Positions 1-30,531 of a stretch of 64,000 nucleotides of DNA are shown in pieces; position 1 is the stretch's first letter; each line of letters opens with the position of its first letter. The stretch covers positions 1,116,001 through 1,180,000 of the forward strand of contig NZ_CP022989.1 of NCBI RefSeq assembly GCF_002278075.1, written 5' to 3'. The position numbers and the translations under genes were made by a program. Source of the stretch: Paraburkholderia aromaticivorans (lineage in GTDB: Bacteria > Pseudomonadota > Gammaproteobacteria > Burkholderiales > Burkholderiaceae). The notes below the pieces were generated by a model. It did not search any database. It saw only the letters and a program-made list of their open reading frames with translations, and was not told the origin of the DNA.

Positions 1-871
1 TTCCTGCCTGCCGCTGCCAGGTCGCCCAGGTATGTCTCAAGTCATGCCAGCGAAAGTCCTCGATGCCAGCCCGCATCAAGGCAGCTCGCCAAGCCTTCGT
101 ATTAGCTGAATTGATCGGCCGCCCCCTGAAAGTGAAAACTCGCTGGGGGTGCCGCCCAATCTGTCGCTTGAGTACATCCATCGCCGTCTCGCTCAACGGA
201 ACCGCAATAGGGCGGCGGTTCTTTGATTGCGTACCCTTGACCCAGGCATGGCGCAGCTCCAGATTCACCTGCGCCCACTCCAGCTTGAGAACGTTGCTCT
301 GTCTCAAACCCGTTGCCAAGGCAAACAGCACGCAATCGCGCTGATGCTCCGGTAACTCCTGGAGCAGGCTGCGGGCCTGCTCCGGAGTCAACGACCGTTC
401 ACGGTTATTTGCTTCTTTAAAGAGCCTGACCTTGGGCACCTTGTCGATCCACTCCCATTCGTCTCGTGCCCGAAGAAGAATGGATCGAACCAGTGCCAGG
501 TAGCGGTTGCATGTGCCTTTCGAACCCTCTTTAAGCCTCGCGGACCTGATTCGATCGATCACATCCATCGTGATTTCATCGAGATTCAGGCTACCAAGAT
601 AAGCATGCAGCCATACCAGCTTCCGCTTGTCCTCTTTATGCGTGGCCTTTTCCGAGGTTTCCTCCAGCCAGCGAACAACCGCCTCACGCCAAGAACGCTT
701 GGGCTTAACCCCAAGACGTTCTTGCTGCCACAGCGACGCCTTCAGCATGTCGTGATATTCCTGAGCCGCTACTTTGTCAGCAGTCCCAGTACTTCGCTGT
801 ATTGCCGGTCCACTGCGTGGCGTGAGCTTGACCCACCAATAGGGGGAGTCCTTGCGTTTGAAGAGTGACAT
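1..871 (-). CDS. Tyrosine recombinase/integrase, C-terminus beyond the window
   Basis: The reverse strand reads open from an ATG at 871 to the window edge, about 290 codons, without reaching a stop. The N-terminus (MSLFKRKDSPYWWVKL) is a typical Arm/SAM-like DNA-binding start. The catalytic domain shows the first active-site arginine in ATGLRQSNVLKLEW and the second box in WHDLRHTWA. The catalytic tyrosine would lie beyond base 1. It overlaps the upstream HTH gene by 103 bp, and the relaxase operon lies just behind, so it is probably the recombinase that inserts and excises this element. Family assignment is firm; the target site is unknown because the left end is outside the window. Confidence 0.9.
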   Translation of the reverse strand, partial: MSLFKRKDSPYWWVKLTPRSGPAIQRSTGTADKVAAQEYHDMLKASLWQQERLGVKPKRSWREAVVRWLEETSEKATHKEDKRKLVWLHAYLGSLNLDEITMDVIDRIRSARLKEGSKGTCNRYLALVRSILLRARDEWEWIDKVPKVRLFKEANNRERSLTPEQARSLLQELPEHQRDCVLFALATGLRQSNVLKLEWAQVNLELRHAWVKGTQSKNRRPIAVPLSETAMDVLKRQIGRHPQRVFTFRGRPINSANTKAWRAALMRAGIEDFRWHDLRHTWATWQRQAG

Positions 872-1071
872 ATATCGTTCCTTGCAGTGTCACCCTGCAA
901 CGCTCGCCGCGTATATTGTGACCGGATGTGTTCGATCAGGTCAATTTTGAGAAAAACCCAGCGCTTGCCGATCTTGGCACCAGGGACAGCCCCGGTTTTC
1001 GCCTTTTCCAGCAGCGTGACTGGATGAATCTTCAGGAACTCGGCGGCCTGTTGCAGGGTGAACGTCTCCAT
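769..1071 (-). CDS. Excisionase-like helix-turn-helix protein
   Basis: A 100-residue protein. Residues 1-50 form a MerR/Xis-type winged helix (TLQQAAEFLKIHPVTLLEKA, then GAKIGKRWVF), the small DNA-binding fold used by recombination directionality factors. The C-terminal 34 residues are encoded inside the start of the integrase gene in another frame. From memory of the family, the tail pattern CHSSNA...GGS recurs in homologues, so the overlap is probably a real feature and not a misread stop. It would couple translation of Xis and Int. The start lies 3 bp downstream of the relaxase stop, so it may sit at the end of the relaxase operon. It could also be a simple transcriptional regulator. Confidence 0.75.
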   Translation of the reverse strand: METFTLQQAAEFLKIHPVTLLEKAKTGAVPGAKIGKRWVFLKIDLIEHIRSQYTRRALQGDTARNDICHSSNARTPPIGGSSSRHAVDRQYSEVLGLLTK

Positions 1072-1074
1072 GCA

Positions 1075-3675
1075 TCAGCCCCCGATTTCCGGGCCGTCAT
1101 GCCGATGCCGACCGGCTGAATCCAGCTCCAGCGCAGCGCCCTTGGCGCTCTCACGCGATACGGCATCGGACAACATGGAGCGATCATCGGTATAAATCGT
1201 GACCTCATCCCGAGCGCGCGAAATCGCGACGTACCACGCGTTCTCGTTCATCGTCATGCTGTGGCTGTCGGCCTCGACCAATACACGATCGACGGTTTGC
1301 CCTTGGGATGCATGAACCGTCACGCAGTAGCCATGATCGAGATGCAGCGGTTGCGACGCATCGAGTATCAGTTGCCGACCGTCTTCCCGGCCGAGCGTCA
1401 CTGTTTGCCGTTCGGCATCGATGCCCGTGACGATTGCCCGATCTCCGTTTGCAATTTCACGTCCGTAATCGTTCGCCGTTAGCCGGACAGCATCGCCCAA
1501 CGCCAGCTCCCGGGAAACCAGTTGATACGCGCTCAGGTTGCTCTGAATGGCCGGACGCCACTCAACTCGCCCCCCATCACTACGGAGCAGCGTAACGCGC
1601 CCTTGAGATACCTCCTCAACCCGAGCCCAGTCTCCCCGGCCGATTCCCAGCGATGCGTACAATTTCTGAGCCTGGACAACGTCGCCAGCTTGATAGGACA
1701 AGGAACTGCGGGCCTGTGCCATCGTCAGGTCCTTACGCTCCATCGTGGCGACCATGACCCCATGCCCCGCCAGCCCCAACGCTGTCCGAACCTGTTCGTT
1801 GATAGAGGTTCTAGCCGCGCGGGTGCCAGCGACAATCAACGATGCCTTACGCTCATCCGGCGACAGTCCGGAAAATTCTCGCGCAATGGCCTGGTGGCGC
1901 TCGCGGCCATCATTGATTTCGATCACGTTCCGGGAGAGCGCCGACAGCGAGCGCGCACCATCGCCACGTGCAGCCAGCTCCACGGCATGGCGCAGACGCG
2001 CATCGTTCTGCCGGAGAATTTCACCCATCTCCGCGCGTGCGATGCCCGCCTCCTGAAGCTGTGCGAATGGTCGGCCCGCCTCGATAGCCTGGAGCTGCTG
2101 CACGTCGCCGATGAGTACGACCCGCGCATTAGCCTGCTCAACACGGGACAGGATGGCATGCATGTCTCGGGCCGAAACCATACCGGCTTCGTCCACGATC
2201 AGTACGGTTTGCGGCGTGAGCCCCGACGCTTCGCGGTTAATGAATGCCGCAATGGTCTCGCTCTTGATACCCACCCCGGACAGTTCCCGGGCTGCCGCAG
2301 CAGACGGCGCAATACCGACAAGCTGGTAGCCCTGTTGCTGCATGACCAGCGACGCCACGCCCAGCATGGCAGTCTTCCCCGTTCCGGCCAGCCCCTGTAT
2401 GGCACTCACCCTGCTATCCGTCGCCAGCATGAGCGCCGCTGCCGCCTGCTGCCCCGAGCGCAGATTCGAAGCGGACAAGATGCGCCCAACCTGCTGTACA
2501 TCCATGATCGGCTCAACGGCTGCTCGGCCGCGCAACTCCATCGCAAGAATCTCGCGCTCGCGCTGCTGCGCCGCTGGCGTGGTATAGCGTCCATCCTGCG
2601 CGATCAACAGGCCATCGGCAAGCTGATGCGAGATTTCGGCCCGAATCGCATCAAGATTGGTACTACCCGTTCCCACCTCCAATGCGGCGCGCAAAATCTG
2701 CGCGTCGGTCACGACGGACTGGCGCTCGGTCGTATGTGCAACGGCATGCGCGACGGCTTCCCGTGTACTCGCCGGATCAATTTGGACCGTGGACAGCTCC
2801 CGGGCGTGCCTCGATAAAAAATCGATGCTCAGTTCATGGCTTTTCTCTTTCCACGTTTCGAGCAATACAGCTCGATTCACCTCGCCCTTGGCCTCACGCG
2901 TGGCCAGCGTTGCCCGCTGCCGCTCATAGTGGGTCGCATCCGCCCTTGTCAGACCGTCATTGGCAAGTGCAGCGGTAATTGCCTGGCTGCGCTGGCTGAA
3001 CGCCTGGGCTTGGTAATCGGAAATATGGGCAAGCTCAAACCGGCCATCGGCGTGGGTCAAACGTACGTCATACCCAAGCTGCTGGACCTCCAGCGCCAAC
3101 TCTGAACGGTACAGTGCACCGACAAGCATTTTCTGGCGCAGGATTTCGCCCGGCTCCAGCGCCCGCCATTCACCGTCAGCCCGCTGCGTCGCATTGATCA
3201 GCACCGCATGCGTATGCAATTGCGGGTCGGTATCGCGCGAGAGGTCATGCAGAAAACTGGCGATCAACAGATTGCCGCTTTTCTGAAGCTCGGTTTGCCC
3301 TCCGTCCGTTACACGATACGCAGCAAGCCCCTGTACATAATCGAGTGCTCGTCCCACAGCGGTTTGATGCGCCTCGACCAGGCGGATATCTCCACCAATC
3401 AACGCCTGCATCGATACCGATTTCGGGGCAGAGAATGTCAGATCGACGCCCGCCCGCCGTCCATCTCCAGCATTGTGAATATGGCTTCCATTTGGCAGAT
3501 GCCCGTCAAGAAGGCGTGTAAACGTCGTTGCGTCCACATCGTCGGCCAACTCCATACGCTCTGCACCAGCTCCCATCCACCGCGATGGTGAACGATCCCC
3601 GGTGTAGTAGTTGTCAGCCTCAGCATAGTAGGTGCTCGCAGCACCACTATTTTTTACGATAGCAATGCTCAGCAT
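1075..3675 (-). CDS. MobF-family conjugative relaxase-helicase (TrwC/TraI type)
   Basis: An 866-residue two-domain protein. The relaxase domain has paired tyrosines near the N-terminus (Y16/Y17 and Y23/Y24, where TrwC has its nicking tyrosines) and a three-histidine metal site (H143, then H154 and H156 in PQLHTHAVLIN). The second half is a RecD-like helicase with Walker A GLAGTGKTAML near residue 430, Walker B LIVDEAGMVS near 490, and the C-terminal motif HASQGQTVDRV followed by YVAISRARDEV. It would nick oriT, stay covalently bound to the transferred strand and unwind the plasmid. It is somewhat shorter than TrwC (966 aa). The start overlaps the coupling-protein stop by 7 bp, indicating translational coupling. 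Confidence 0.93.
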   Translation of the reverse strand: MLSIAIVKNSGAASTYYAEADNYYTGDRSPSRWMGAGAERMELADDVDATTFTRLLDGHLPNGSHIHNAGDGRRAGVDLTFSAPKSVSMQALIGGDIRLVEAHQTAVGRALDYVQGLAAYRVTDGGQTELQKSGNLLIASFLHDLSRDTDPQLHTHAVLINATQRADGEWRALEPGEILRQKMLVGALYRSELALEVQQLGYDVRLTHADGRFELAHISDYQAQAFSQRSQAITAALANDGLTRADATHYERQRATLATREAKGEVNRAVLLETWKEKSHELSIDFLSRHARELSTVQIDPASTREAVAHAVAHTTERQSVVTDAQILRAALEVGTGSTNLDAIRAEISHQLADGLLIAQDGRYTTPAAQQREREILAMELRGRAAVEPIMDVQQVGRILSASNLRSGQQAAAALMLATDSRVSAIQGLAGTGKTAMLGVASLVMQQQGYQLVGIAPSAAAARELSGVGIKSETIAAFINREASGLTPQTVLIVDEAGMVSARDMHAILSRVEQANARVVLIGDVQQLQAIEAGRPFAQLQEAGIARAEMGEILRQNDARLRHAVELAARGDGARSLSALSRNVIEINDGRERHQAIAREFSGLSPDERKASLIVAGTRAARTSINEQVRTALGLAGHGVMVATMERKDLTMAQARSSLSYQAGDVVQAQKLYASLGIGRGDWARVEEVSQGRVTLLRSDGGRVEWRPAIQSNLSAYQLVSRELALGDAVRLTANDYGREIANGDRAIVTGIDAERQTVTLGREDGRQLILDASQPLHLDHGYCVTVHASQGQTVDRVLVEADSHSMTMNENAWYVAISRARDEVTIYTDDRSMLSDAVSRESAKGAALELDSAGRHRHDGPEIGG

Positions 3676-4928
3676 GAGCCCTCCATGAACGGTATCTGCA
3701 CGGCTGGCCGGGGCACCGGGGAAAATCCAACCTGACGCACAGGCTCGTTACCTGCCAGAGCAACATAGGCGGTCAAATCGGCGAGCTGGGTCAGCTCGCT
3801 TGGCAATGCCAGACGTTCCGTCGCACGCTGCAAGCTTTCTCCGCGAGAGATTCCCTGCATACCGGATTGAGTGCTGTACTGCACCCGGTCGATTTCACGG
3901 TCTCCAAGCGCCTTCGAGAGGATTTCGCTGGTATCGGGATCGCTCCTCGATAGCGACAACACCACCAGATTACGAAAACACGAGCGAATGCTGATGGCCG
4001 TCTCGCGCCCATACACACGGTCAAGCTGGGCCGTCGATTGCAACCCGGCGATCACGCAGAGACCATGTTTACGCCCCCGCGTAAGTGCGCCTTCCAATGA
4101 ACTCAAATGGCCCAGCGCTCCCAGCTCATCAAGCAGCAACCACAACCGGCGATCCGGGGACGGCTGAAGACTCAACACGGCATTGCACAGCAGATCGACC
4201 CAGCAGCCGATCAGGGGCTGCATGACTGCCTGCATGTCTTCTCGCCAGGTGATATACAGATTGCTATCTCCGTCAGCCAGCCAGTCGCGAAGGCTGAAGC
4301 CCCCTGGCTGCAAATACTGGTGGGAATTCAGATATGTGGTCAGAATGAATCTGGTGCTGGCCAGCGCCCGGCCCGCATCGCGGTCGAACAGCCCCTGAGC
4401 CTGGGTTCCCGCGAGGAGCTTCGCCAATTCCTCGACAGTCGCACTGGTCAGCCTGTCGAGCAAATGCATGGTCGTGTTTTCCCCCTGCCGCATCAGCACA
4501 CGCATGCCCTCGGCAGCGAGGATTTGCGAATAGAAATGCCAACTCGCGTCGGGGCCGTGACCATCGGGAATGAGGGATTTTGCCAACCGGAAGTAATCGA
4601 AATCTTTCCGGATTTCGTTAAAGATCGTCCACCCCTGCCCGCGCCGGTCAAACGGATTCAGGATGATGTCGTCGTCGCCACCGAAGTAGGTCAGGTGATG
4701 CGCACTAGGATCAACCACGATGGCGCGATCCCCACGGGAGACAATGCCCGCCAAGACCTCATCAATTAGAGTGGTCTTGCCGACTCCTGTCGAGCCGACG
4801 AGCAGGGTATGAAGGGTCTCGTTTTTGGGCGGGAGGCTGACACCTCCCAGCGTGATAGCGGCACGCTGGGAAGCACGCCCGCCGAGAATGGCAGGACGCA
4901 TGCGCATGGGCTCAGCCTCCCCGCTCAT
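3669..4928 (-). CDS. Type IV coupling protein ATPase (TraD/TrwB family), soluble part
   Basis: A 419-residue ATPase that delivers the relaxase-DNA complex to a type IV channel. Walker A is LLVGSTGVGKTTLI (about residues 43-55) and Walker B is LWLLLDELGALGHL; GLQSTAQLDRVYG matches the conserved TrwB motif after Walker B. The frame is open to 5033, but ATG 4928 (MSGEAEPMRMRP) is preferred because it overlaps the upstream stop by only 17 bp. With this start it has no N-terminal membrane helices, unlike TrwB or TraD. The two-helix protein just upstream could supply them. TraG/VirD4 paralogy makes the exact subfamily uncertain. Confidence 0.88.
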   Translation of the reverse strand: MSGEAEPMRMRPAILGGRASQRAAITLGGVSLPPKNETLHTLLVGSTGVGKTTLIDEVLAGIVSRGDRAIVVDPSAHHLTYFGGDDDIILNPFDRRGQGWTIFNEIRKDFDYFRLAKSLIPDGHGPDASWHFYSQILAAEGMRVLMRQGENTTMHLLDRLTSATVEELAKLLAGTQAQGLFDRDAGRALASTRFILTTYLNSHQYLQPGGFSLRDWLADGDSNLYITWREDMQAVMQPLIGCWVDLLCNAVLSLQPSPDRRLWLLLDELGALGHLSSLEGALTRGRKHGLCVIAGLQSTAQLDRVYGRETAISIRSCFRNLVVLSLSRSDPDTSEILSKALGDREIDRVQYSTQSGMQGISRGESLQRATERLALPSELTQLADLTAYVALAGNEPVRQVGFSPVPRPAVQIPFMEGSC

Positions 4929-5241
4929 CGATGAAGCGACTGCCGCGGCGATGCATGACATTTGTTTTGCGAGCCCACCAGCGACCAATAATGAGAAACA
5001 GAATGGTCGTCTGCAAAACGCTAGCCCATACAATCAGCATCGCGAGGAGGCTATTAATCGATCCGGGAGAAAGCGGCCAGACGCCCGAAAGCCGGATCAA
5101 CGCATCGAGCCACGAATCGCCAAGCTGTTGCCAGCATGCGACCCACAAGAGCACGCTTTGAACGAGCGCGAACGCCACAAAGTAAACCACACGCACTAGG
5201 ATGGTGTGGACTTGCTGCATTAAAGGATCATGAGCCATCAC
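4912..5241 (-). CDS. Two-helix membrane protein, probable membrane module of the coupling protein
   Basis: A 109-residue protein with two hydrophobic segments (about residues 13-37 and 62-86) separated by a loop of roughly 25 residues containing DSWLDALIRLSG, and a basic C-terminus (RWWARKTNVMHRRGSR). This is the topology of the N-terminal membrane domain of TrwB/TraD. The gene overlaps the start of the ATPase gene and itself begins with a 4-bp ATGA overlap with the RHH gene upstream. The inference is that a coupling protein has been split into two chains. It could instead be an unrelated small inner-membrane protein; no sequence motif proves the role. Confidence 0.6.
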   Translation of the reverse strand: MMAHDPLMQQVHTILVRVVYFVAFALVQSVLLWVACWQQLGDSWLDALIRLSGVWPLSPGSINSLLAMLIVWASVLQTTILFLIIGRWWARKTNVMHRRGSRFIDERGG

Positions 5242-5555
5242 AGTCCCTCCTGACGGTACTGCTGGTTGCAGGATGCTGTGATGCGCGCGGCGGCCTGTGG
5301 GTGGCTATGACTGGCCATCAAACGCACCAGTTGCAGTGTTTCCTGGATCGCGGGCCAAGCGTCAGGGGTTGCCGTCGCAGGCTGAGTCGAGACGATGTCG
5401 CGAATCGCGTCCACGACGCCGAGCCCTTCAACAGCGCGATCGAGCACGGCCCGCATGAATGCCGAAACTGTCAAGCCTTCGGCATCGGCTCGCTTGCGGA
5501 TCGCATCGAACTGGGCGCAAGTCACGGCGGTCTTGAGGAAATTGCGACGTGCCAT
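5238..5555 (-). CDS. Ribbon-helix-helix relaxosome accessory protein (TrwA/MobC-like)
   Basis: A 105-residue protein whose first 50 residues look like a ribbon-helix-helix unit: a short basic strand (ARRNFLKTAVTCAQF) followed by helices containing IRKRADAEGLTVSAFMRAVLDRA. Such proteins bind next to nic, bend oriT and assist the relaxase, and usually repress their own operon. It is the first gene of the transfer operon, joined by ATGA to the membrane protein downstream. The presumed oriT gap lies immediately upstream. The family match is by pattern and position, since RHH proteins conserve little sequence. Confidence 0.65.
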   Translation of the reverse strand: MARRNFLKTAVTCAQFDAIRKRADAEGLTVSAFMRAVLDRAVEGLGVVDAIRDIVSTQPATATPDAWPAIQETLQLVRLMASHSHPQAAARITASCNQQYRQEGL

Positions 5556-7056: not shown

Positions 7057-7209
7057 GTCACGTTCGGATCCTCATACGCTCGGTGGGTAACGCCGGTCGA
7101 GCATTGCCGACGAAGTTGAGCGATCAAGAGGAAGATTTTACCGCTTCGCTTGTAGCGAAGGACGCCGTCGGTAGCAACGAAAAGTCACTTGTGAGAAGCG
7201 CGACGTGTT

Positions 7210-7230
7210 GTATAGTTTGATGTATAGTTT
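7210..7230 (+). promoter_or_regulatory. Repeated GTATAGTTT upstream of the TIGR04255 cassette
   Basis: The 9-mer GTATAGTTT occurs twice, at 7210-7218 and 7222-7230, one helical turn apart and 39 bp before the TIGR04255 start. It could be a tandem operator for the HTH protein of the same cassette, and each copy also supplies a TATAGT -10-like hexamer. No separate -35 is convincing. Confidence 0.35.
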
Positions 7231-7268: not shown

Positions 7269-8084
7269 ATGACCGATCGCAGCGGCATCCTTCCACATTC
7301 GCCTCTGCTGTATGCTCTCGCATCGGTTCGGTTTGCGCCGTTGCCGCTGCTACCGTCCAAGATCCCGGAAATACACGAGCAACTACGGGATGCGACGCCT
7401 CTTTTGCAAAATGTCCAGCAGCAGACGCAGTTGGTGATGACCCACGGCGCAACTCCGATTGCTGAATCGTCTACGCAGGCTTGGCTCATCATGGCTAGCG
7501 ATCGGTCGTTCGGTGTGCAGTTGGGGACAGAACAGGTGCTATTCTTTGCCCGCAGATACAGCAGGTTCGCTGCGTTCGGGGAGTTCATCACCCGTTGCTT
7601 GGGCTTGCTCTTCGAGCATATGAAGTTTTTGGACGTTACCGGCACTGGCGTTCGCTACGTCGATCATATCAAGCCGCGACAAGGGGAAACCTTGGCTGAC
7701 TACGTCGCGGAAGACTTTCTGACGCCTCCTGTTCCAACTTTCGATCCAATTGGCGGCGTATCACAATACATTTACGGCGCTGGCGAAAGTCAACTTCGTG
7801 TGCGGAGTGTGTTCAGTGCGGAGGCTTTGTCTATTCCGGTTGATTTGATCGGACTCATCGCAACGATCCAAGGGCCAGAAAATCCCTTGATCCTGACGAA
7901 ATTGCAGCGAGATGAAATGCTGCTCGACATGGATTCGGTACTCAACTTCTCGCAGCCGCGACGTCAGGATCTAAAGGAAATCGAGAAAACGCTCGATAAC
8001 TTGCATAAGAATGCTAATGCATTCTTTAGGCATGATGCGGTATGTACAGACTTTGCGTTCGAAGTATGGCGAGGAGAGAAATAG
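7269..8084 (+). CDS. TIGR04255 family protein
   Basis: A 271-residue soluble protein matching the layout of the sporadic TIGR04255 family: an N-terminal pattern PLLYALASVRFAPL, a central segment with VTGTGVRYVDHI, a later stretch GLIATIQGPENPLILTKL, and a closing helix ending FAFEVWRGEK that resembles the family's typical FE.W.GE end. The biochemical role of the family is unknown; members are scattered and common in mobile regions. It is the first gene of a tight three-gene set (+1-bp gap to the HTH gene). It could be a sensor or effector; nothing in the sequence shows an enzyme active site. Confidence 0.72.
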   Translation: MTDRSGILPHSPLLYALASVRFAPLPLLPSKIPEIHEQLRDATPLLQNVQQQTQLVMTHGATPIAESSTQAWLIMASDRSFGVQLGTEQVLFFARRYSRFAAFGEFITRCLGLLFEHMKFLDVTGTGVRYVDHIKPRQGETLADYVAEDFLTPPVPTFDPIGGVSQYIYGAGESQLRVRSVFSAEALSIPVDLIGLIATIQGPENPLILTKLQRDEMLLDMDSVLNFSQPRRQDLKEIEKTLDNLHKNANAFFRHDAVCTDFAFEVWRGEK

Positions 8085-8085
8085 C

Positions 8086-8769
8086 ATGATCGACATCAAT
8101 CCGCCCTCGATTAATGTGCAATGGGATAGCTCAATGCCCCTTAGAGTTCCGGGGTGGCAGGAGCTTCCGCTCGGCACGTTTTCTGCAGCTTCGTTTGAGT
8201 CGGAATGGCTTAATGGTAGCGAATCGTTAGCAACTGCGCCGGCCGGTGTCTCTGGACAAAAGGCATTGCTCTTTGTCATCGATGGCAAGCCGTTGATGGT
8301 TACCCTCCAAGCTTCTATTGAAGAGCGAGCATCGGGCCAATCAGCCGCAGAGCTGTCAACCCCCGGCCAATTGGACATGGTGAAGACGCGCCTCGGAATT
8401 TCCGTCACGCAACTTGCCGATCTGCTTGGCGTCACAAGGAAGGCAGTCTACGATTGGTATGAAGGTGCCGCCCCCCGACCCACTATGATTGGCCGTATCA
8501 ACTCGCTGGCGGACGCGCTTGGCAGTTTCGATGACACAGACCTTAAGAAGTTAAAGGCGGTCTGGAATATCACGTTGCCGAGTGGTTCATTCCGGTCTAC
8601 GCTCCAAAGTGATACGCTATCGGGTCCCGATCTCACGGCCGCCCTGGTGGCAAAGCTGAATGAACTTTCTGCGGAAATGTCTGCAACGACTAGGTCGTCC
8701 CGGCGCGCGTCAGCTTACGTCGGAGAATCGAGCCTCTCAGACATCGACCGCCGCAGCGACTCCTTCTGA
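8086..8769 (+). CDS. HTH (XRE-type) protein paired with TIGR04255
   Basis: A 227-residue protein with start ATG 8086 preceded by GAGGAGAG. Residues about 97-128 form a helix-turn-helix (KTRLGISVTQLADLLGVTRK, then AVYDWYEG). The N-terminal 80 residues are a separate domain with no recognised family, and the tail is serine- and arginine-rich. The frame also runs from 8011, but that start would overlap the preceding gene by 74 bp and lacks an SD. Probably the cassette's regulator, or a DNA-binding component of a three-part system. The next gene begins inside its 3' end, 110 bp before the stop. Confidence 0.75.
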   Translation: MIDINPPSINVQWDSSMPLRVPGWQELPLGTFSAASFESEWLNGSESLATAPAGVSGQKALLFVIDGKPLMVTLQASIEERASGQSAAELSTPGQLDMVKTRLGISVTQLADLLGVTRKAVYDWYEGAAPRPTMIGRINSLADALGSFDDTDLKKLKAVWNITLPSGSFRSTLQSDTLSGPDLTAALVAKLNELSAEMSATTRSSRRASAYVGESSLSDIDRRSDSF

Positions 8770-9658
8770 CGACCCTGCCACCGTTTTGATTCGAATAAGG
8801 GATCAAGGATGGTGGCAGGGCTCGGTTATTGAATCCTGTCAACTGGCTGCTGTTGGTCATCCTTGCGACGAGGCCGATTTCTGGATCGTTGCTTCGCAAA
8901 CGTGCAATTTATATAACCCGTCCTTCGAGAAAGTGCCCGTGTTCGAGGTGGTCGGAGCCTACGGAGTGGACGAATGCAGCCCTGCAAAGGTGAAGGGCGA
9001 CGATCCCCGCGTTCTTCACGTGGAGGCGGAATCCGCAGACCTCAAGATGGCCCTGAATGTGGACATTCAAAAGCGCAAGTGGCTGCCTCGAAACTGCCTT
9101 GCGTTGCTTCCGGCGCCAGAATTTCACATCAAAGATCGCGTCAACCAAGCCGGATCATTAAAGGATCAGTGGCTCGACAATTTTTCCGGCTGGATGGGTA
9201 GAAGCTACACCCGTGTCGCGCTTCCGGATGAGTTCAACGATGCTCTAGGAGAATCGCGGCTCAAGCAGATCTTGGAAGAAAAGTTGGCGAAGGAGAAAGA
9301 CGCTCTTTATGGAATCTATCTGACGATCGAGCCCGACAGCGACGAACCTTGGACCGAGACGTTGGGGTTAATGCCGTCGCCGTATCTGCTGGGCATCACG
9401 CTTCTAGTGCACGAAGAACACTCGCCCGTTACAGTACGGAGCAAAGCGGTCAAGCAGATTTTCAAGGACACGCTGCCGGACCCGTTGGACGGAACAAAGA
9501 AAGTTACGCGGGCGGAACTGGCGAAGCGTCATGGCATTCGTATCGTAGAGGCCGGAGTAGAGTCAATCAGCGTAGCCGACATCAGCCTCCAAGAAATGAA
9601 GCGCCTAGTCCGCTACACAATGGTGGATCACCTGTCAAATTCGTCGATGGCCGCGTGA
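8660..9658 (+). CDS. Unknown protein, third member of the TIGR04255 cassette
   Basis: A 332-residue soluble protein. The most distinctive segment is ADFWIVASQTCNLYNPSFEK (about residues 72-91), a hydrophobic strand followed by SQ-x-C-x-L-x-N. I recall similar SQ.CD..N motifs in uncharacterised mobile-element proteins but cannot name a family. A lysine-rich helix follows (KQILEEKLAKEKDALYG). The long 110-bp overlap with the HTH gene suggests either strong coupling or a later start; a TTG at 8786 is in frame but has no SD. The operon-like arrangement points to a joint function with the two preceding proteins. Function unknown. Confidence 0.62.
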   Translation: MNFLRKCLQRLGRPGARQLTSENRASQTSTAAATPSDDPATVLIRIRDQGWWQGSVIESCQLAAVGHPCDEADFWIVASQTCNLYNPSFEKVPVFEVVGAYGVDECSPAKVKGDDPRVLHVEAESADLKMALNVDIQKRKWLPRNCLALLPAPEFHIKDRVNQAGSLKDQWLDNFSGWMGRSYTRVALPDEFNDALGESRLKQILEEKLAKEKDALYGIYLTIEPDSDEPWTETLGLMPSPYLLGITLLVHEEHSPVTVRSKAVKQIFKDTLPDPLDGTKKVTRAELAKRHGIRIVEAGVESISVADISLQEMKRLVRYTMVDHLSNSSMAA

Positions 9659-9797: not shown

Positions 9798-11126
9798 TCA
9801 GGTTGGCATTTGTGGACTCTCGAGCTGATCGTCATCATCTTTGTCGCCCGTGAAATTGCGTACAGGGGCGCCACTCCTCGCGATCCCATTTAATTTGTCT
9901 TTCAAATAGCGTGTGTAACCAAGAACACTTTCCAAGTGCCGAGATAGCACTTGCGAGGGAACGATCACGGACGGCTCGTGAACGATATAGTTCCTCAGCC
10001 GAACTAAATCTTGAATCTCCGACCTTTGGTCCGATGTTAATAAATGGTATCGCTTGGTGACGACATTTACCAGCGATCTAATATTGTTTGGATCTGGCCT
10101 AGACTCATGCTTCCCCTCCGATTCGAGGAGCTGATCGACCAAAATAAGCAAGTTTTCGTGAAACTCGTTCCATGCGGATAAGAACTCGTAATAGCCTTCC
10201 CCCTTCGTAAGAGCAACATTTTCAGAAACCATTTCACGCTCATCCTCTGAGACTGTCACTTGATCTAGATTTTCGATCGCGTGTTGCAGTTTCGGCGCGA
10301 GTTCATCACGCAGCGCGACTATTTCTTCAAAATCCCCCCTAGTCACCGGGCGATTGTGCGCCACCTGATTGCGTCTCTCGTATAAGCGCTCCCACCTTGA
10401 CCGAAGGTATTCGCTTTCGCAGTTAACTATTTTTGAAAAGAATCGATCCCAGTTTGATTGCGGAATTGCAAGCTTAAGCTCGGATAAATTCAAGTCATCA
10501 AGTTTCTCCGCTTTTTTCAGCCTCTCGATCAAAACGGCTGGATTTATATTTGCATATTCTTTAAACAAAAAATTTGACAATTGAATAAAGTCGACTTCAT
10601 ACAAATAATTTTGATCTAATTTTGCATCTTTCGAACGAACAGATTCTAGAACTTCTTTCGGAACAGCTTCTTTAGCCCAGCCACCGCCGACATTAATTAG
10701 CATGAATTTCGTTATCAGCTTACGCATCGTGTTTTCTATTTCATGCACGATCGGGTAAGCGGTCTTCGCGTAGCCAAAACTAACGTCATCCCACAATATT
10801 TGCGGAGGTTTCGCTGCCGCCTTATGCAGGAGGCTTCTGATATTCTTTAAAAACCCCTCAAAATCACGATTTTGCGATTCATCATCGACTGAAATTTTTA
10901 GATGAAAAAAGCGATGCTTATCGCGCTCAATTTCACCGCATTGAATCTCATAACGCATGACGAGAGAACCGAATTTCATCTCAGTTTTTGAGATCGATAC
11001 TCCGTCGATTGTTCTCAATAAATTATTAAATGAGGATACGGACTTGCAAAAAGCTTCTTTCTGGTCAACGGTAATAAGATATTCAACCCTTGGCACAGCT
11101 ATTCTCCCCGGTTTCCGTGGCGTCAA
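9798..11126 (-). CDS. HEPN-type (Swt1-like) protein with two RX4H motifs
   Basis: A 442-residue soluble protein. Segment 124-139 (YPIVHEIENTMRKLIT) resembles the opening helix of Swt1-like HEPN domains. The first HEPN signature is R252-N-Q-V-A-H257 (YERRNQVAHNRPV) and a second is R378-N-Y-I-V-H383 (RLRNYIVHEPS). HEPN domains with R-x4-6-H are ribonucleases widespread in toxins and phage defence, and the motif residues form the active site. The N-terminal 110 residues are of unknown fold. The gene converges on the TIGR04255 cassette and is visibly richer in A and T than its neighbours, a sign of recent transfer. A non-catalytic HEPN scaffold is possible, but both motifs are intact. Confidence 0.7.
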   Translation of the reverse strand: MTPRKPGRIAVPRVEYLITVDQKEAFCKSVSSFNNLLRTIDGVSISKTEMKFGSLVMRYEIQCGEIERDKHRFFHLKISVDDESQNRDFEGFLKNIRSLLHKAAAKPPQILWDDVSFGYAKTAYPIVHEIENTMRKLITKFMLINVGGGWAKEAVPKEVLESVRSKDAKLDQNYLYEVDFIQLSNFLFKEYANINPAVLIERLKKAEKLDDLNLSELKLAIPQSNWDRFFSKIVNCESEYLRSRWERLYERRNQVAHNRPVTRGDFEEIVALRDELAPKLQHAIENLDQVTVSEDEREMVSENVALTKGEGYYEFLSAWNEFHENLLILVDQLLESEGKHESRPDPNNIRSLVNVVTKRYHLLTSDQRSEIQDLVRLRNYIVHEPSVIVPSQVLSRHLESVLGYTRYLKDKLNGIARSGAPVRNFTGDKDDDDQLESPQMPT

Positions 11127-11573: not shown

Positions 11574-11618
11574 CTCTTAATCCGTAGGTCGAGTGTTCGA
11601 GTCACTCACGCCCCACCA
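11574..11618 (+). repeat. 3' half of tRNA-Lys(CTT), attachment-site remnant
   Basis: These 45 bases carry the 3' part of an anticodon loop with CTT, a complete T arm (GAGTG-TTCGAGT-CACTC), the acceptor 3' strand and an encoded CCA. No 5' half precedes it, so it cannot make a tRNA. Islands that integrate into tRNA genes duplicate exactly this portion, and a relic integrase starts 165 bp downstream. It is therefore read as the att copy of an old tRNA-Lys island. Confidence 0.85.
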
Positions 11619-11782: not shown

Positions 11783-12660
11783 ATGGCATACATCAGTCAG
11801 CGCGGCGCGTACTGGCGTGCCGAAATTCGTCGGCGCGGCTACAAACCTGTCTATCGCACATTCGATACGAAGCAGCAGGCGCAGCAATGGGCGAGGCGGG
11901 TGGAGTCGGAGATGGACAGCCGGGCGTACGTCGATCGTACGGAAGCTGAGCGAACCACGCTCCGCCAAGCGTTGGAGCGGTACCGCCGCGAGATCGTCCC
12001 CGAGAAGCGCCACCCGTATCAAGAAAACCGACGCATCCAACGCTGGATCGACAACGATCTGTCGCATCGAACTCTAGCCAACTTGCGCGGCGCAGATTTC
12101 GCGAAGTATCAAGACGAACGCCGGGCAGCCGGGCAGCCGGGCGCGCAGAAAACACCATTCGGCTCGAACTTCAGGTCATCAGCCACCTTTTCGAAATCGC
12201 CCGCAAGGAATGGGGCATGGAAGCGCTGACGAATCCTTTGAAGAACATCCGAAAGCCATCCGGCAGCGAGGCAAGGGATCGCCGTTTACGTCCCGGCGAA
12301 TTCGAGATGCTGCACGCGCGCCTATCGGCTAGCGGCAATCTGTGGGCGGCGCTTGCGTTCGAGCTGGCAATCGAAACGAGCCTGCGACAAGGGGCTCTCT
12401 TCAGTGTGCAGTGGGAATGGCTCGATCTAGCAGGTCGCCTCCTTCATTTCCCACCGACTGCCGTGGCACGGAGAACAAGGGCGTACCCCCAATCCTTCCG
12501 CTGTCCAGCCGAGCCGTCGCTGTATTTCGCCACCTTGCAGCTCTCGCAGAAGGCCCGGAGGCCCGCGTGACCCGTTCGCGGGTCGGCCCTGCGGACGTGA
12601 TCCCTCAGAGGCTGACGGGACGGGTGTTCGGGACGAGTGTTAACGCAGTGAGCGGCGCCG
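11783..12660 (+). pseudogene. Decayed tyrosine integrase next to the tRNA-Lys fragment
   Basis: The N-terminus (MAYISQRGAYWRAEIRRRGY, then KPVYRTFDTKQQAQQWARRV) is a clear integrase arm-binding domain. The reading shifts frame near 12150 into EALTNPLKNIRKPSGSEARD with the first catalytic arginine region (AIETSLRQGALFSVQWEWLD), then shifts again near 12470 into VPPILPLSSRAVAVFRHLAA and RLTGRVFGTSVNAV. After about 12660 the similarity ends, before the HxxR box and the tyrosine. At least two frameshifts plus a truncation mean it is dead. Its place beside the tRNA 3' end is the classic integrase position of a genomic island. Confidence 0.85.
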
Positions 12661-13193: not shown

Positions 13194-14258
13194 CTATTCA
13201 TCTTTTGCCCATTCAGCAATCAATTCAGCCGGAATCGCCTTCACCGCTTCTACATAGCGCTTACCGACAAACTGCTCGGCACGAAATAACAGAATTGGAA
13301 TCGGACTGCTGGGTTCATGTCTTTCGAACCAGTGTCGTGCGTCGCGAATAGATTGCAATGCCGCGTCGCGGCCCGATAAGGTTCGTCCAGCCACACCGCT
13401 TTGCGCCTCCTGCTGCGGCGATTCGGGCGTGGCGGCATCGAGTGCGGCCGTGGCTGGCACCCCGTCGAACTCAGGTGAGGCGATCTCGCCTTCCAACAGG
13501 GATACCGCATGCGCGGCATCGGAACCTTCACCCACCACACGCTCGAGCATGCGCGTCAATGCAGCGAGATCCGCCGCGAACTCGCCGAGCCTTTCCCGAT
13601 TCCACGTGTCGATCACGTCAAGACTTTCAAGCGCCGCGTCGAAGCCCGCCATCAAAGCGGGCTGCTGAACGCGCACATCCTCAAGCTGCCGCGTCACAGA
13701 CTCCACCGATAGCGCATCGCTCGGGCGCGGCTGGGCAAACGCACGCTCCACGTCGCGCACCTGCAAACGCGTGGCTGACGAGCGCGCCAGCGCGATATCG
13801 CGCACGTCCGATAGCAGCCCGTCCGTATCGGTCAATGCCTGGAGCGCGTTCATGCGAATTTCAAGCGCCGCGTCTTTATCGTCATCCACGCCGGGTTGCG
13901 GGTGGACGGTGTCGGCAAAGACCGTCAACCACGAAGCGAGCAAACCCAGCCCTTCGGCCAATCCTGGCGCCGCGCCTAAACGCGTGCGGCAACGTGTAAA
14001 TAGCACGGCAAGCCGGATGTCCTTGCTGCGCATCATGAGCCGTCGGCAATCGCGCTCGACGTCGCTCCAGTTGATCGGCTCCGGTGAGCCTACGAAGTCG
14101 CCATACTGCGCATCCATTTTTGCCGCCACCTGGGCCGATAACACCACGAATTCCGGATCGTATTCGAGGTCTACGCCGCAGGGAGCGGACGGGTCGACCG
14201 GCGTCATCCAGTCGTGCGACGGTTTGTGCTGGGCCGTCGAATTGCGTTTCGTGCTCAT
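13194..14258 (-). CDS. tssA: Type VI secretion protein TssA (ImpA-like)
   Basis: A 354-residue protein with the ImpA N-terminal domain (about 15-150: DWMTPVDPSAPCGVDLEYDP, then DWERDCRRL-like WSDVERDCRRLM and SKDIRLAVLFTRC). TssA binds the baseplate and caps or primes sheath-tube assembly. The tail (RDAALQSIRDARHWFERHEP followed by SSPIPILLFRAEQFVGK) matches the short TssA class. The start overlaps the tssG stop by 4 bp (ATGA), so it belongs to the tssEFGA transcript. It is intact; the next gene downstream, vgrG, is not. Confidence 0.92.
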   Translation of the reverse strand: MSTKRNSTAQHKPSHDWMTPVDPSAPCGVDLEYDPEFVVLSAQVAAKMDAQYGDFVGSPEPINWSDVERDCRRLMMRSKDIRLAVLFTRCRTRLGAAPGLAEGLGLLASWLTVFADTVHPQPGVDDDKDAALEIRMNALQALTDTDGLLSDVRDIALARSSATRLQVRDVERAFAQPRPSDALSVESVTRQLEDVRVQQPALMAGFDAALESLDVIDTWNRERLGEFAADLAALTRMLERVVGEGSDAAHAVSLLEGEIASPEFDGVPATAALDAATPESPQQEAQSGVAGRTLSGRDAALQSIRDARHWFERHEPSSPIPILLFRAEQFVGKRYVEAVKAIPAELIAEWAKDE

Positions 14259-15346
14259 GCCACCCCCTGAACGGCGTTACGCCGCATTGCGTCCGGATTG
14301 AATCGCGCACCGCACTTGACGTACTCCTCGGGCTCGAAAAGCATGCCGGTAATCGGTTTGCCGTCGGACGACCGGCCGAGCCATCCTGACCACCCTAACT
14401 GTTGCTCGCCACCCAGCACCGCGGGTGGCGCGCTCTCTGCCTTGATGCGCAATTCCAGCTCCCACTGGAACTCCCGGCCGACGAAACTGCGCACCCAATC
14501 CACGAGTTCGGGCAACGCAGCGCCACGCGGCGTGAAACGCAGGTATTCGTCCAGGTGAACAGGCCCGATCACCACCCTGAAGTGATACTGCCGATCCGGG
14601 GCCAACTCGCCGAGCATGGCACCCTCACCCATGACCGAGGCCGCGCTGGGTTCACCGAGATGCGTCTGTTCTTCGCGCGTTACATTGACCCAATGAAACT
14701 GGTACTCAGCGATGCGGACCGGCACGCCGAAATACTGTTCGAGCGTCATGCGCAACCCATCGGGATCGCGCGCCTCGCGCACGAGGTTGGCCGATGCGGC
14801 CAACTGCGCATGCGGTGGCAGCGCACGGCCGGCGATCTCGTCGAGGTCTTGCCCCGTCCAACTGGCGATATAGAACGAGAACTTCTCGTCGTCGGCTCGA
14901 TCGAGCCCTGCCGCGGCCTGCGCCGATGCCCACGCCCGATACAGCAGCGCGAGATACCGGTGATGAAAGATGTCGAGAAAATTGCTCAACGTCCGGTCGC
15001 CCCGGTTTTCCTCCCGCTCTCGAGCAATCTCGGTCACATGGCTAGGTAGCGGCCCGTTTGGCCCGAGCGAGCCGAGACCGAACAGACGCACATGCAGGCG
15101 TCCATCGAGCTCGCCGACACTGGCGATTTCGCGCGGGGCGAACGCGAGGCTCGGCTGCTGTCCCAGACGAAACGGCTCGGCCCGCGGGCGCGCGGCGGTG
15201 CCGACGGGTTCGATGCGAGGATCCGCGCCGATGCGCCGCATCAGCGACAAAAACCCGTAACGCCACGGCGTGGTCCGCAGGCCTTCGATCATCTCGGGAG
15301 AGAGCGTCGATTCGCGCTGCAACGGCGTGTCGAAGCTGCGCTCCAT
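14255..15346 (-). CDS. tssG: Type VI secretion baseplate protein TssG
   Basis: A 363-residue baseplate component of the TssE-F-G-K wedge. Recognised by TTPWRYGFLSLMRRIGADPR near the N-terminus, LGPNGPLPSHVTEIARER, and the middle FFHRYL-like FLDIFHHRYLALLYRAW. The open frame extends up to 15532, but ATG 15346 is chosen because it overlaps the tssF stop by one base (TAATG) and gives the normal length. A TAATG junction implies coupled translation, fitting the fixed stoichiometry of the wedge. Confidence 0.93.
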   Translation of the reverse strand: MERSFDTPLQRESTLSPEMIEGLRTTPWRYGFLSLMRRIGADPRIEPVGTAARPRAEPFRLGQQPSLAFAPREIASVGELDGRLHVRLFGLGSLGPNGPLPSHVTEIAREREENRGDRTLSNFLDIFHHRYLALLYRAWASAQAAAGLDRADDEKFSFYIASWTGQDLDEIAGRALPPHAQLAASANLVREARDPDGLRMTLEQYFGVPVRIAEYQFHWVNVTREEQTHLGEPSAASVMGEGAMLGELAPDRQYHFRVVIGPVHLDEYLRFTPRGAALPELVDWVRSFVGREFQWELELRIKAESAPPAVLGGEQQLGWSGWLGRSSDGKPITGMLFEPEEYVKCGARFNPDAMRRNAVQGVA

Positions 15347-17238
15347 TACGCCACGCCTCGCGTACCCATGCGCACGGGCCAGCGCATGATGCAGCCGCGC
15401 TGCATCGAATGCAATTCGGTCTGCGTGAACGAATTGATCGATACATGCCGCGCCAGATAATGTTCGAGGATTAGCCCCAACAGGTAGGGGCTGGTGCCTG
15501 AGAACCCCGTCTCGTCGACGGTCAGCTGACATTCAATGCCGCGCCCGAACACGAGCGGACCATTGCCCGGAAGCTTGCGCGTCACGGAACGGGTCCTCAC
15601 GCCCAACAGGCTCTCGACCTGACGCTGGTGCTCAGTGTCTTCGCTGCTCAGAAAGAGCCGCAGCATGTCGCGCAAGCCCTGGCCGCCGGGACGATGATCG
15701 ACGTCCTCGAGCGGCAAATAGTTGAAGTTCAATTGCCGGATCAATCGCCACGCGGTCTCGCCTTCCGCATAAGGTGGCCGCGGCGCGCTCGGTGGGCGAA
15801 TCAGACCGATGCTTGCAACCGGTTCGCCGCTTTCCAGCTGCATGAAATCGTTCACGCCGTTGCGCGGCACGAGGAGAGGCAAATCACGGTTGGTCAGCCA
15901 CGCATCCGCGGACAGATAGCGAATGCCATCATGATATGGCGCTGCCCGCTGATCCACGAGCGAGACAAACGTCTCGGTGCCGACATAGGCCGTACGCGTG
16001 CCATAGCGTCGCGACGTATCCGAAGGCAGACGTCGCTCGCGGCGCACCGAGAAGTATTGGCCGTGATTGCCTTCGTCGTTGTTCAGTGTCTGATAGAGCG
16101 GCCGGAATTCGAACTTCGCCGAGCTCTTTCCTACTTGGGCATGCAGCGCCTCAACCGAGAACACTTCGTAGTCGAGCGGTGCCTGACGTTTGGGCACCAG
16201 ATGAAACTCCGTGCTCGCCTCCGCCAGTTCGATACGTTCCAGTCTTTGCGGGAACAGATTGATAACCGGCGTGCAAAAGAGCGCGAAGCGTGATGCGTCG
16301 ACGAGGCTGGCGAGCCGATCCGGCGCGCGGTCGAGCAGCACCACGATCTCGGCTTCTTCGCCCTCAGCTTTTTTCAGGCCATCCTGAAGACCCGTGAGCG
16401 TGAAGAAGTAGAAGCGACTCGGGCACGCGAAATACTCCTGCAGGAGATTGTGTCCGTGAAACTTCGACCATGTGAGCGGCAACATGCCTTGATCGAGATC
16501 GAGCCCTTCGTGAACGACGGCCTTTGACGTCACTGCCGCGAAGGGACGATTCGGTGCGTTGAACTTACCCGGCTCGCCAACGACCGACGCAATGCCCGCC
16601 GTATGCACGAGCTCGAACAGGTTTGATGCAACCTGCTCATCGCCCGCTAGATAGACGGGCAGGCGATCCAGATTTCCGATCGAGGCAATCTTCTCCTGGT
16701 TCGTGGTTCGAATGCGCAGCCTTAGTGCGCCGCACACTTGCGAATGCGCCGGGACATAGCGCTCGATTCCTGGAATGTCGGGAGGAACGCCCGTGAACCT
16801 CGCACTGGCGATTTCCAGCGGATACAATACGACATCCTGCGTAGTACGAAACGTGCATGACGTATGCTCGTTACCGGGCGTAGGTGTCTTGAGTCTCCTC
16901 CCTCGCTGCAAACAAAAACCGTCCGTCAGATCGCCTTTCGTGTGAGCCGGATAAAACTGCGCCACGGCCATTGATGGCGTGGGCGCAACGTAGTTCGGGT
17001 AAGTGACTTCGAGCAGGCGTTGCGTAAAGCGCGGAAACTCGGCGTCGAGCTTGAGTCGCATGCGCGCGGCCATAAAGCAGAACGACTCGATTAAGCGCTC
17101 GACATAGGGATCGGTCATCTCACCCGCCTGAAGGCCCAGGCGCCGCGCGATCTTCGGGTGCGCCTGCGCGAACTCACCCGCGCTCTCGCGCAGGTAAATC
17201 AATTCCTGGTTGTAGTATTCGAGTAGTCGCGGGTCCAT
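15346..17238 (-). CDS. tssF: Type VI secretion baseplate protein TssF
   Basis: A 630-residue protein matching TssF (VasA, DUF879) over its full length. The start MDPRLLEYYNQELIYLRESA and the segment FPRFTQRLLEVTYPNYVAPT are characteristic. TssF is the largest wedge protein of the phage-like baseplate and acts in the cytoplasm at the inner membrane. The gene follows tssE after 31 bp and overlaps tssG by one base. No frameshift is seen. Confidence 0.95.
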   Translation of the reverse strand: MDPRLLEYYNQELIYLRESAGEFAQAHPKIARRLGLQAGEMTDPYVERLIESFCFMAARMRLKLDAEFPRFTQRLLEVTYPNYVAPTPSMAVAQFYPAHTKGDLTDGFCLQRGRRLKTPTPGNEHTSCTFRTTQDVVLYPLEIASARFTGVPPDIPGIERYVPAHSQVCGALRLRIRTTNQEKIASIGNLDRLPVYLAGDEQVASNLFELVHTAGIASVVGEPGKFNAPNRPFAAVTSKAVVHEGLDLDQGMLPLTWSKFHGHNLLQEYFACPSRFYFFTLTGLQDGLKKAEGEEAEIVVLLDRAPDRLASLVDASRFALFCTPVINLFPQRLERIELAEASTEFHLVPKRQAPLDYEVFSVEALHAQVGKSSAKFEFRPLYQTLNNDEGNHGQYFSVRRERRLPSDTSRRYGTRTAYVGTETFVSLVDQRAAPYHDGIRYLSADAWLTNRDLPLLVPRNGVNDFMQLESGEPVASIGLIRPPSAPRPPYAEGETAWRLIRQLNFNYLPLEDVDHRPGGQGLRDMLRLFLSSEDTEHQRQVESLLGVRTRSVTRKLPGNGPLVFGRGIECQLTVDETGFSGTSPYLLGLILEHYLARHVSINSFTQTELHSMQRGCIMRWPVRMGTRGVA

Positions 17239-17269
17239 GCGAGCGCTTCAGCTCCGTTGATGTCCTGGT

Positions 17270-17818
17270 TCAGATACGCTTTAGATCCGTATGCAAGCGG
17301 CTCGACTCCAGATCGAGCGAGCTTTGCACCATGAATTCGAGTGGATACGGCTCCATGCGGACCATCCCATGAATTTCGAAGGCCACCTGGCTGTGACGGC
17401 CTTGACGATCACTGTCGCTGCGTGGAACCACCCGAAGCGACTCGGGTATCAGCCGCGGCTCGAATCGCTCGATCGCGTCCTTGATTGTTCTTTCGATATC
17501 GGACCACTTGCGCGAGGCCATGAACGCGCCCGCAAGAGGCGGCACGCCAAAATTCACCGTCGATACCTCCACGAGCGGATAGCGCTTGCGGTCGATGAGA
17601 TCGCCCAGATTGGTCGCATTCAACAGATAGGCCAGATCGCGTTGGATGATGTCGCGCAACTGGGTACGCGTGACGGCATATTCGCCAGGCACTTCGGTCT
17701 GCCGATGCGGTGCATCGTCGCGCAGACGGTCAAACAGTGTCGGCAGCAAGTAGCTGTCGGCACGGCGCGGTGAGCCTGCCGCGTGTTTAGCGCGATTGGG
17801 TTGAGTTGATTGCGTCAT
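17270..17818 (-). CDS. tssE: Type VI secretion baseplate protein TssE (gp25-like)
   Basis: A 182-residue gp25/lysozyme-like baseplate protein. The family core appears as YLLPTLFDRLRDD, RTQLRDIIQRDLAYLLNATN and VSTVNFGVPPLAGAF, where gp25 proteins have a conserved NyG.P. The start is taken at ATG 17818 (MTQSTQPN); the frame continues 9 codons upstream. It is the first surviving gene of the cluster. Sheath genes tssB and tssC and hcp, which often precede it, are not present in the 690 bp upstream. Confidence 0.9.
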   Translation of the reverse strand: MTQSTQPNRAKHAAGSPRRADSYLLPTLFDRLRDDAPHRQTEVPGEYAVTRTQLRDIIQRDLAYLLNATNLGDLIDRKRYPLVEVSTVNFGVPPLAGAFMASRKWSDIERTIKDAIERFEPRLIPESLRVVPRSDSDRQGRHSQVAFEIHGMVRMEPYPLEFMVQSSLDLESSRLHTDLKRI

Positions 17819-18513
17819 GCTCGATCCTGCATACCGGACGCACACGTCGGCGTCTGCGACGCGTCACTTCGCGCACGAGACCGCGGCACGCATGGCTTGG
17901 CCCGCTGCTGAGCCACCACATCCCGCTCGAAGATCGATAAAACTTTCATGTTGTCGTGCGCGATCGCTTTGATATCCGTCAATACACAACGGACAACTAA
18001 TCTTATAAGTAGCCCAAAAAAATCCGACGCATTAGCTCACGATCCATTTGTATTTGTCAATCCTTAATATCTGTCAAAAAACATTGATTTCTATTCAAAT
18101 AAAATATCTGTCACAAAACATCGATTCATCAAAGGGAAATGTCTTAGAATTTTCCTACGCATGCGAGTTATTTAAGAATTTTCTAGTGCATGGCACGCTG
18201 GCGTCTCAGAGTCTACTGGGTTAGCATTCGTCGATGCAACGAGCACAGGTAAATAGCCACGATGTCTCGCCAAGGCATTTCTCTCGAAACTTAGTTTTGC
18301 CATTTTTTCGGCATTGAATGCCACGATCGCGTTCTGTAAACCATGAAACGGTATGAACGCATTCGCTGATCGGCTTGAGCGCTTCCGGCTGCCCGATCGC
18401 GCGCGCCGCGAGCGTGCTGAACCAGGCGCGTTCGCCTTCCGATACCATGTCGGCTGCCCGCGCCACCCCGCGCGCGGCGCAAAGCTTTGCATTTTCCCGC
18501 ACCGACAAAGAAC
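17819..18513. other. Long gap upstream of tssE with AT-rich core
   Basis: Nearly 700 bp without a confident gene. The middle (about 17990-18170) is AT-rich, unlike the rest, and contains a near-perfect direct repeat (listed separately). The right part, about 18365-18508, has strongly coding-like third-position GC on the reverse strand (MVSEGERAWFSTLAARAIGQ), suggesting a gene fragment that loses sense near 18350. It probably also contains the tssE promoter and the promoter of the rightward membrane-protein gene. Confidence 0.45.
18066..18126. repeat. 24-bp imperfect direct repeat upstream of tssE
   Basis: AATATCTGTCAAAAAACATT-GATT at 18066-18089 recurs as AATATCTGTCACAAAACATC-GATT at 18103-18126, with only two mismatches, 37 bp apart (start to start), inside AT-rich DNA. 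It could be a paired binding site for a regulator or an H-NS-type silencer controlling the T6SS genes. Confidence 0.6.
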
Positions 18514-30291: not shown

Positions 30292-30531
30292 ACCGGATCT
30301 GCGCAAACGGAAGAGAGGGGTGACAGGGAAAGGCAATTCCCATGCCGAACGCCTCCGGCACCCTGCCCACCCGAATCGTACGTCACCTGCCCAGCCCACT
30401 GTTCAATGGATGAACAGCAGGGCGCGCATTGCTCAGAAATGTGACGCTCGCTGGACGCCGATGGAACAACTTTGCGCGCGGTTCCGTGCGCAAGTGCCTG
30501 CCGCGTGTGCACGCATCACCAGCGCGGTGCA

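Follow-up and report, generated by a model that had tools for sequence, protein, structure and literature searches.

What is the three-gene cassette that lies at positions 7,269 to 9,658 of a 64,000-nucleotide stretch of the Paraburkholderia aromaticivorans genome (contig NZ_CP022989.1, positions 1,116,001 to 1,180,000; hereafter the window)? An earlier note on this DNA, made from the letters alone, had seen a TIGR04255 gene, a helix-turn-helix (HTH) gene and a third gene with an SQxCxLxN motif, and took them for a multi-component defence or stress system, with its own regulator and carried by an integrative element, and for the most likely undescribed system in the window. We consider it fairly probable that the cassette is a tripartite toxin-antitoxin-like module in which the TIGR04255 protein is the constant part, the cassette of the window being one subtype. 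The features on which this proposal is built are:

7209..7230, + strand: putative tandem operator, two copies of TGTATAGTTT (7209-7218 and 7221-7230) with a 12-bp period
7269..8084, + strand: TIGR04255 gene, 271 aa, proposed constant component of the module, predicted alpha/beta fold
8086..8769, + strand: HTH gene, 227 aa, proposed antitoxin/regulator
8660..9658, + strand: third ("SQxC") gene, 332 aa, proposed toxin
9798..11126, - strand: HEPN gene, 442 aa, HEPN domains by Pfam, further cargo of the element

The three cassette genes are intact and share one strand, with the 1-bp gap between the TIGR04255 and HTH genes and the 110-bp overlap between the HTH and third genes that had been noted earlier; the source genome has a single TIGR04255 gene. 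Assignment of the first gene to TIGR04255 is certain at the level of the profile match (NCBIfam TIGR04255.1 at 87.5 bits against a curated cut-off of 30, E 1.2e-24), and the predicted model of the protein has a pLDDT of 91.9. The protein gave no match at E <= 1 in PADLOC 2.0.0, and a PDB sequence search with its profile returned nothing credible (best E 0.0033, tissue factor). Several Pfam HTH models match the second protein, all below their cut-offs (best E 1.9e-4); despite these scores we regard its HTH as real. This region spans approximately residues 96-150, the N-terminal region being variable, and residues R118 and W124 are invariant in an alignment of 31 sequences. The idea that the second protein contains a hydrophobic segment addicted to a chaperone was dropped because the signal was too weak; a strongly hydrophobic stretch is present in 20% of 60 second genes, versus 8% of 60 TIGR04255 genes and 9% of 55 third genes.

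Protein searches yielded 174 relatives for the third protein (120 of them listed), as against 24 for the TIGR04255 protein and 44 for the HTH protein. The order and strand of the trio were kept in all 19 loci fetched with the third protein (10/10 from the genome_contigs and 9/9 from the viral_contigs collection). The same holds for all five plasmid hits, distant ones at 23-27% identity, which belong to Mesorhizobium, Meiothermus, two cyanobacteria and Vibrio furnissii. The three families thus clearly occur together elsewhere, where the earlier note had seen a lack of such co-occurrence as fatal to its proposal. Conserved, adjacent and co-directional genes are a trait of type II toxin-antitoxin systems, and the cassette displays it. 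The third protein itself is rare, with matches in 3 of 299 genomes of the family (counting its own genome and one weak partial match), and a search of the phages collection gave no match. In another genome of the family, a distant pair of HTH and SQxC-like genes was observed (L023:1162-2799, - strand; E 3e-7 and 5e-7), with no TIGR04255 gene within that short stretch.

A TIGR04255 gene is present in 30 of 398 genomes sampled from the phylum, in 28 of 274 from the class, in 14 of 97 from the genus and in 20 of 385 from another class; the surroundings of such genes were surveyed in two batches. The first comprised 72 loci, in 67 of which the gene could be placed and 65 of which had 900 bp or more of downstream sequence. 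In 60 of these 65 a second gene follows that is adjacent and co-directional, and in 55 there is a third gene as well; upstream, an adjacent co-directional gene was present in 9 of 63. In the second batch (21 loci, 20 placed) a second gene was found in 18 of 20 loci and a second plus third gene in 15 of 20, which brings the totals to 78 and 70, respectively, of the 85 loci with room.

By sequence, both the second and the third genes form a number of groups that BLAST does not join, and some second genes miss the HTH model. Among ten third genes hand-picked for Pfam testing, three gave matches above cut-off, each in a single locus: PemK/MazF in L034, Zeta_toxin in L062 and PIN in L154; the other seven gave nothing above the Pfam cut-off. 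PDB sequences confirmed the MazF identity of L034, and for L062 they returned only RecA and another P-loop protein, so that its zeta name rests on Pfam. Third genes that look HEPN-like (L050, L069, L165) were read by eye; Pfam found nothing in L165, and the best that PDB offered for L069 was E 0.073. Searching plasmids with the TIGR04255 proteins of the MazF and PIN loci yielded one record, a plasmid from Bacteroidota with an SNTCD-type third gene, and no further cassette with a known toxin. An unannotated plasmid record of Phocaeicola massiliensis (Bacteroidota; L200:2571-4283) carries an SNTCD-type TIGR04255 cassette.

A tree was built of 67 TIGR04255 proteins: that of the window, that of L062, those of eight additional trio loci and those of 57 placed loci bearing a group label, where the label of group C was taken from the second gene. 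Ten placed loci that belonged to no group were not included. Cassette type requires 13 changes on this tree, compared with 37.3 in shuffles, which indicates that cassettes are inherited together but that third genes are exchanged. Sister positions were found for the MazF and PIN loci (98/73), for an HEPN-like and an SNTCD-type locus (98/89) and for the zeta locus and an SQxC locus (99/97), several rows, including L062, being long-branched.

Two further subtypes were observed in the surveyed loci. A large one (L029, L039, L051, L053, L054, L068, L070 and others) has a second protein with 'WDGYGA' and a third protein with 'NPAHA'; the one 'NPAHA' protein tested, from L039, has no Pfam match, and these are candidate new toxin families. 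In the other (L030, L031, L149, L151, L180) the third protein has a conserved GLTC[AS][TS]F and resembles an NlpC/P60 cysteine hydrolase by eye, with Pfam silent for L031.

The tandem repeat that had been noticed just upstream of the cassette is borne out: its score was never reached in 200 block shuffles of the region. A -10-like TATAGT (7211-7216) overlaps the first copy, the number of promoter-like matches being not above the shuffle mean. As two copies of TGTNTASTTT with a 12-bp period, the repeat is present at cassette heads in the window, Caballeronia, Pseudomonas, a Desulfocapsaceae genome and Mesorhizobium; variants head the cassettes of Meiothermus (Deinococcota) and of cyanobacteria, the latter with three copies. 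A scan of 1.09 Mb, with both strands counted, gave 26 sites with a score of at least 17 of 20, and 25 of these lie at cassette heads, spread over 23 loci, or 22 independent loci when L002 and L040, which have identical HTH proteins, are taken as one. The threshold is reached by 22 of 36 cassette starts. In five loci that reach it (L007, L008, L015, L062 and L064) the site lies 42-63 bp inside the called start, and these starts are therefore probably miscalled. L062 has the repeat at its head, an HTH second gene and a zeta-like third gene, so that in this single case the repeat goes with the HTH gene. The repeat most likely serves as the operator of the HTH protein, given that 22 of 36 cassettes have it at their head and that variants occur in Deinococcota and others.

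A looser operator pattern, tried as a cassette finder in viral contigs, was rejected as unspecific: 41 of 47 hits lacked the trio and lay mostly within long antisense open reading frames (ORFs), and the six with the trio all had the exact form TGTTTACTTTGGTGTATAGTT and were in contigs already known, so that no new cassette was gained. In the viral contig L091 (reverse complement, approximately 1420-1520) six clustered TGTATAGTT repeats were observed, with no trio gene found nearby; a related repressor may use them as operators, or they may act as its decoys.

For the third protein, searches of Pfam (MazF/PemK, PF02452, included), NCBIfam, PADLOC and PHROGs gave no family match at E <= 1, and a PDB sequence search with its profile gave nothing credible (best E 0.027). 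The SQxC motif remarked on earlier is confirmed: an alignment of 45 sequences shows no variation at Q80, C82 and N83, and in a broader set of 19 third proteins the invariant residues are C82, R117 and W178 only. The predicted model suggests a MazF/CcdB-like barrel at approximately residues 44-187 and a C-terminal part at approximately 199-320; in L061 and L175 the barrel alone makes up the third gene. In the group with the gene overlap (8660-8770 of the window) the N-terminus of the third protein is, by eye, a short amphipathic-looking M-x-F/Y-L-x-x-x-L-x-R stretch, coded within the HTH gene, followed by a disordered linker and missing in many other relatives; this segment may serve for docking or for targeting to a membrane.

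The computations show a conserved gene order in which the first gene is constant while the second and third can be exchanged, a conserved tandem operator tied to HTH-type second genes, and a location in mobile elements. The interchangeable third genes, which include known toxin families among the hand-picked representatives, argue for a toxin-antitoxin-like module. In the mechanism that we propose, the HTH protein of a resting cell would sit on the tandem operator over the promoter and keep the operon repressed, and together with the TIGR04255 protein it would hold the third protein inactive. The latter would be the toxin and, as its predicted barrel resembles MazF/CcdB, its likely target would be RNA or the machinery of gene expression or replication. 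The TIGR04255 protein may stabilise the antitoxin or sense a trigger. Phage infection, loss of the element or a comparable event would disrupt the complex, upon which the freed toxin would halt growth, so that infection by a competing phage is aborted or the element is kept in the population. The cassette is probably a defence or self-preservation device. The earlier idea of a multi-component system with its own regulator is supported; the earlier interpretation as a whole is supported in part, and the toxin-antitoxin-like reading is more specific.

A wider proposal, for which we see the chances as even, is that TIGR04255, a widespread family, is the universal part of a large and hitherto unrecognised superfamily of tripartite toxin-antitoxin/defence modules. 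It would then act as a generic antitoxin-chaperone or infection sensor for unrelated toxins that are exchanged, namely the SQxC barrel, MazF, zeta, PIN, possibly HEPN-like proteins and several unknown families. If this is true, the unknown third-gene families are new toxins. The module that we favour predicts several new toxin families and a cognate operator, and it offers a testable role for TIGR04255, a family without assigned function.

A number of observations weigh against the toxin-antitoxin-like module. TIGR04255 stands without an adjacent partner in 5 of 65 and 2 of 20 loci of the two batches, and partnerless L037 even has a trio-type TIGR04255 (E 5.7e-49). The ten third genes tested with Pfam were selected for group coverage and a toxin-like look, and three of ten is no rate; the PemK profile picks out L034 as the sole third gene of its kind in the first batch and has no hit in the second, and no identity was found for most other third genes (groups C, D and E). 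The operator consensus was derived from the same sequences that were scored, so that the result describes conservation and is not an independent test, and 14 of 36 cassette starts score below 17, some distant ones having variants such as TGTAAAGT. Foldseek with the third protein gave no match at E <= 0.001; the best-ranked rows, from E 0.03 on, are ring proteins of type III secretion systems and zinc transporters, and CcdB and MazF first appear at E 0.39-0.59. Comparisons of the barrel profile with 19-20 PemK sequences were negative (prob 0.1-0.4), and the best profile comparison was that of the shorter SNTCD/SQSCD third genes with PemK (4.3%, E 0.01). The link of the window's third protein to MazF is therefore at fold level only, as seen in a predicted model. 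Finally, the defence genes near the cassettes, described below, were counted without a background rate for comparison.

The mobile location follows from the genes and repeats around the cassette:

1..871, - strand: integrase-like gene, 336 aa, its end 139 bp left of the window, by eye from the ORF
769..1071, - strand: excisionase-like small HTH ORF, by eye
1075..3675, - strand: TrwC-type relaxase, PF08751, E 4.4e-76
3669..5033, - strand: TrwB/TraD-type coupling protein, PF10412, E 7.4e-101
5238..5555, - strand: NikA-like mobilisation protein, PF21983, E 3.2e-5, 24.4 bits, below the cut-off of 27
11574..11618, + strand: attR, 45-bp perfect copy of the tRNA-Lys(CTT) 3' end

Elsewhere in the genome this 45-bp stretch has just one match (E <= 0.001), with the end of the complete tRNA-Lys(CTT) gene that lies to the left of the window (G000:C1:1115730-1115805). 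From there the order is tRNA-Lys, integrase-like ORF, relaxase, coupling protein, NikA-like gene, trio and HEPN gene; no mating-pair genes were seen by eye among the ORFs between the att repeats. The repeats and the gene order between them delimit an integrative mobilisable element of approximately 11.9 kb at tRNA-Lys, with the trio and the HEPN gene as cargo: it has an integrase (by eye), attachment-site repeats and a relaxase, and lacks a full transfer apparatus. The earlier suggestion that the cassette is cargo of such an element thus holds, as does that of a convergent HEPN gene behind it. The HEPN gene has a weak PADLOC match to the candidate PDC-M34B (E 1e-9) and is taken as cargo of the element apart from the cassette. 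Outside attR, at 11783-12229, there is a truncated tyrosine-integrase-like ORF (weak Arm-DNA-bind_4 match, E 0.021), perhaps left over from an earlier element that had inserted at this tRNA-Lys. Beyond the element, the window holds an Mrr-type restriction endonuclease gene (40943-41818, - strand; Mrr_cat E 4.3e-29) and, by eye, an aldehyde dehydrogenase gene (30429-33855) apparently interrupted by a transposase ORF (32004-33260), as well as TssA/TssG/TssF-like ORFs resembling type VI secretion core genes (13194-17845, - strand).

Such a carrier raises the alternative that the same machinery serves to stabilise mobile elements by addiction rather than to defend against phages. The plasmid carriers, of which three of five are conjugative and three of five have VapC/PIN or YhaV toxin genes nearby, fit this as well as the integrative mobilisable element does. 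The wider context was surveyed in 17 loci (L002-L009 and L012-L020), where 128 of 227 ORFs were covered; the trio and many short or edge ORFs were left out. Three of these loci have a primase and an integrase, and one an integrase adjoining the trio, some genes in the survey being assigned via BLAST clusters. Against addiction, L009 and L012 are P2-like prophages in which the trio adjoins the portal gene, and the cos-proximal slot by gpQ of Escherichia coli P2-like phages is a defence hotspot (PMC9122126). Known defence genes with strong matches, moreover, lie within 8 kb in at least 3 of the 17 loci, one locus each for type I restriction (L004), SIR2-HerA (L007) and AbiD (L016). A role in addiction instead of defence is rather unlikely in our view.

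We give somewhat less credit still to a defence system outside the toxin-antitoxin class, in which the TIGR04255 and third proteins would join as sensor and effector in a complex directed at phage nucleic acid, with the HTH protein as no more than a repressor. The extra C-terminal part of the third protein, its invariant C, R and W residues and the failure of sequence profiles to join it to PemK speak for such a complex; MazF, zeta and PIN toxins filling the same slot elsewhere, in one locus each, and the barrel alone as third gene in L061 and L175 speak against it. It is improbable, in turn, that TIGR04255 is an enzyme which modifies the HTH repressor and so would release the operon and the toxin, a notion prompted by a predicted fold like the catalytic domain of guanidino-kinases/McsB, with the McsB/CtsR pair as the analogy for repressor modification. 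A module by which mobile elements control lysogeny or transfer, made of a repressor and two accessory proteins without a toxin, would suit the HTH gene, the conserved operator and the integrases nearby, but is very improbable in view of its occurrence in very different elements, the second genes that miss the HTH model and the toxin families in the third slot.

The tripartite module is real, widespread and apparently undescribed. The trio matches no known system among the anti-phage models of PADLOC 2.0.0, where the HTH protein gave weak matches over its HTH only. In the literature searched, which covered few subscription papers and no bioRxiv preprints, no paper names TIGR04255, and papers on MazF-like or tripartite phage-defence systems hold nothing on the trio; the earlier expectation of an undescribed system thus agrees with what was found in print. 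The cassette may resemble MazEF, PemIK and CcdAB in the predicted barrel of its third protein, and a true PemK occupies this slot in L034. It differs from them in that the window's third protein has no sequence-level match, in the SQxC motif (invariant in the nearer relatives), in the extra C-terminal part and in the TIGR04255 partner. The protein families of PaaR-PaaA-ParE are not known to be related to those of the trio. That system is similar in being made of three genes with a separate regulator (named in PMC8832971). The position next to the portal gene in the two prophages recalls the hotspots of P2-like phages and P4 satellites; these have been described in E. coli phages, and TIGR04255 is absent from that text (PMC9122126).

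The closest principles in print are those of the toxin-antitoxin-chaperone (TAC) systems (PMC11618068) and of Panacea (PMC8832971, PMC10440598). TAC systems such as CmdTAC have SecB-related chaperones, CmdC sensing a phage capsid protein, and they consist, as proposed here for the cassette, of a toxin, an antitoxin and a constant third partner. The cassette differs in that TIGR04255 is its first gene and has no Pfam match at E <= 1; SecB is not among the fold-match rows shown for it, though the two may be related. In Panacea (PanA/PanT) one conserved protein is paired with many unrelated toxin families, much as TIGR04255 is found beside PemK, Zeta and PIN in one locus each. The cassette is distinguished by its three genes with a separate HTH gene, and its three proteins have no Panacea/DUF4065 match in Pfam, so that it may represent a second 'one partner, many toxins' network beside Panacea.
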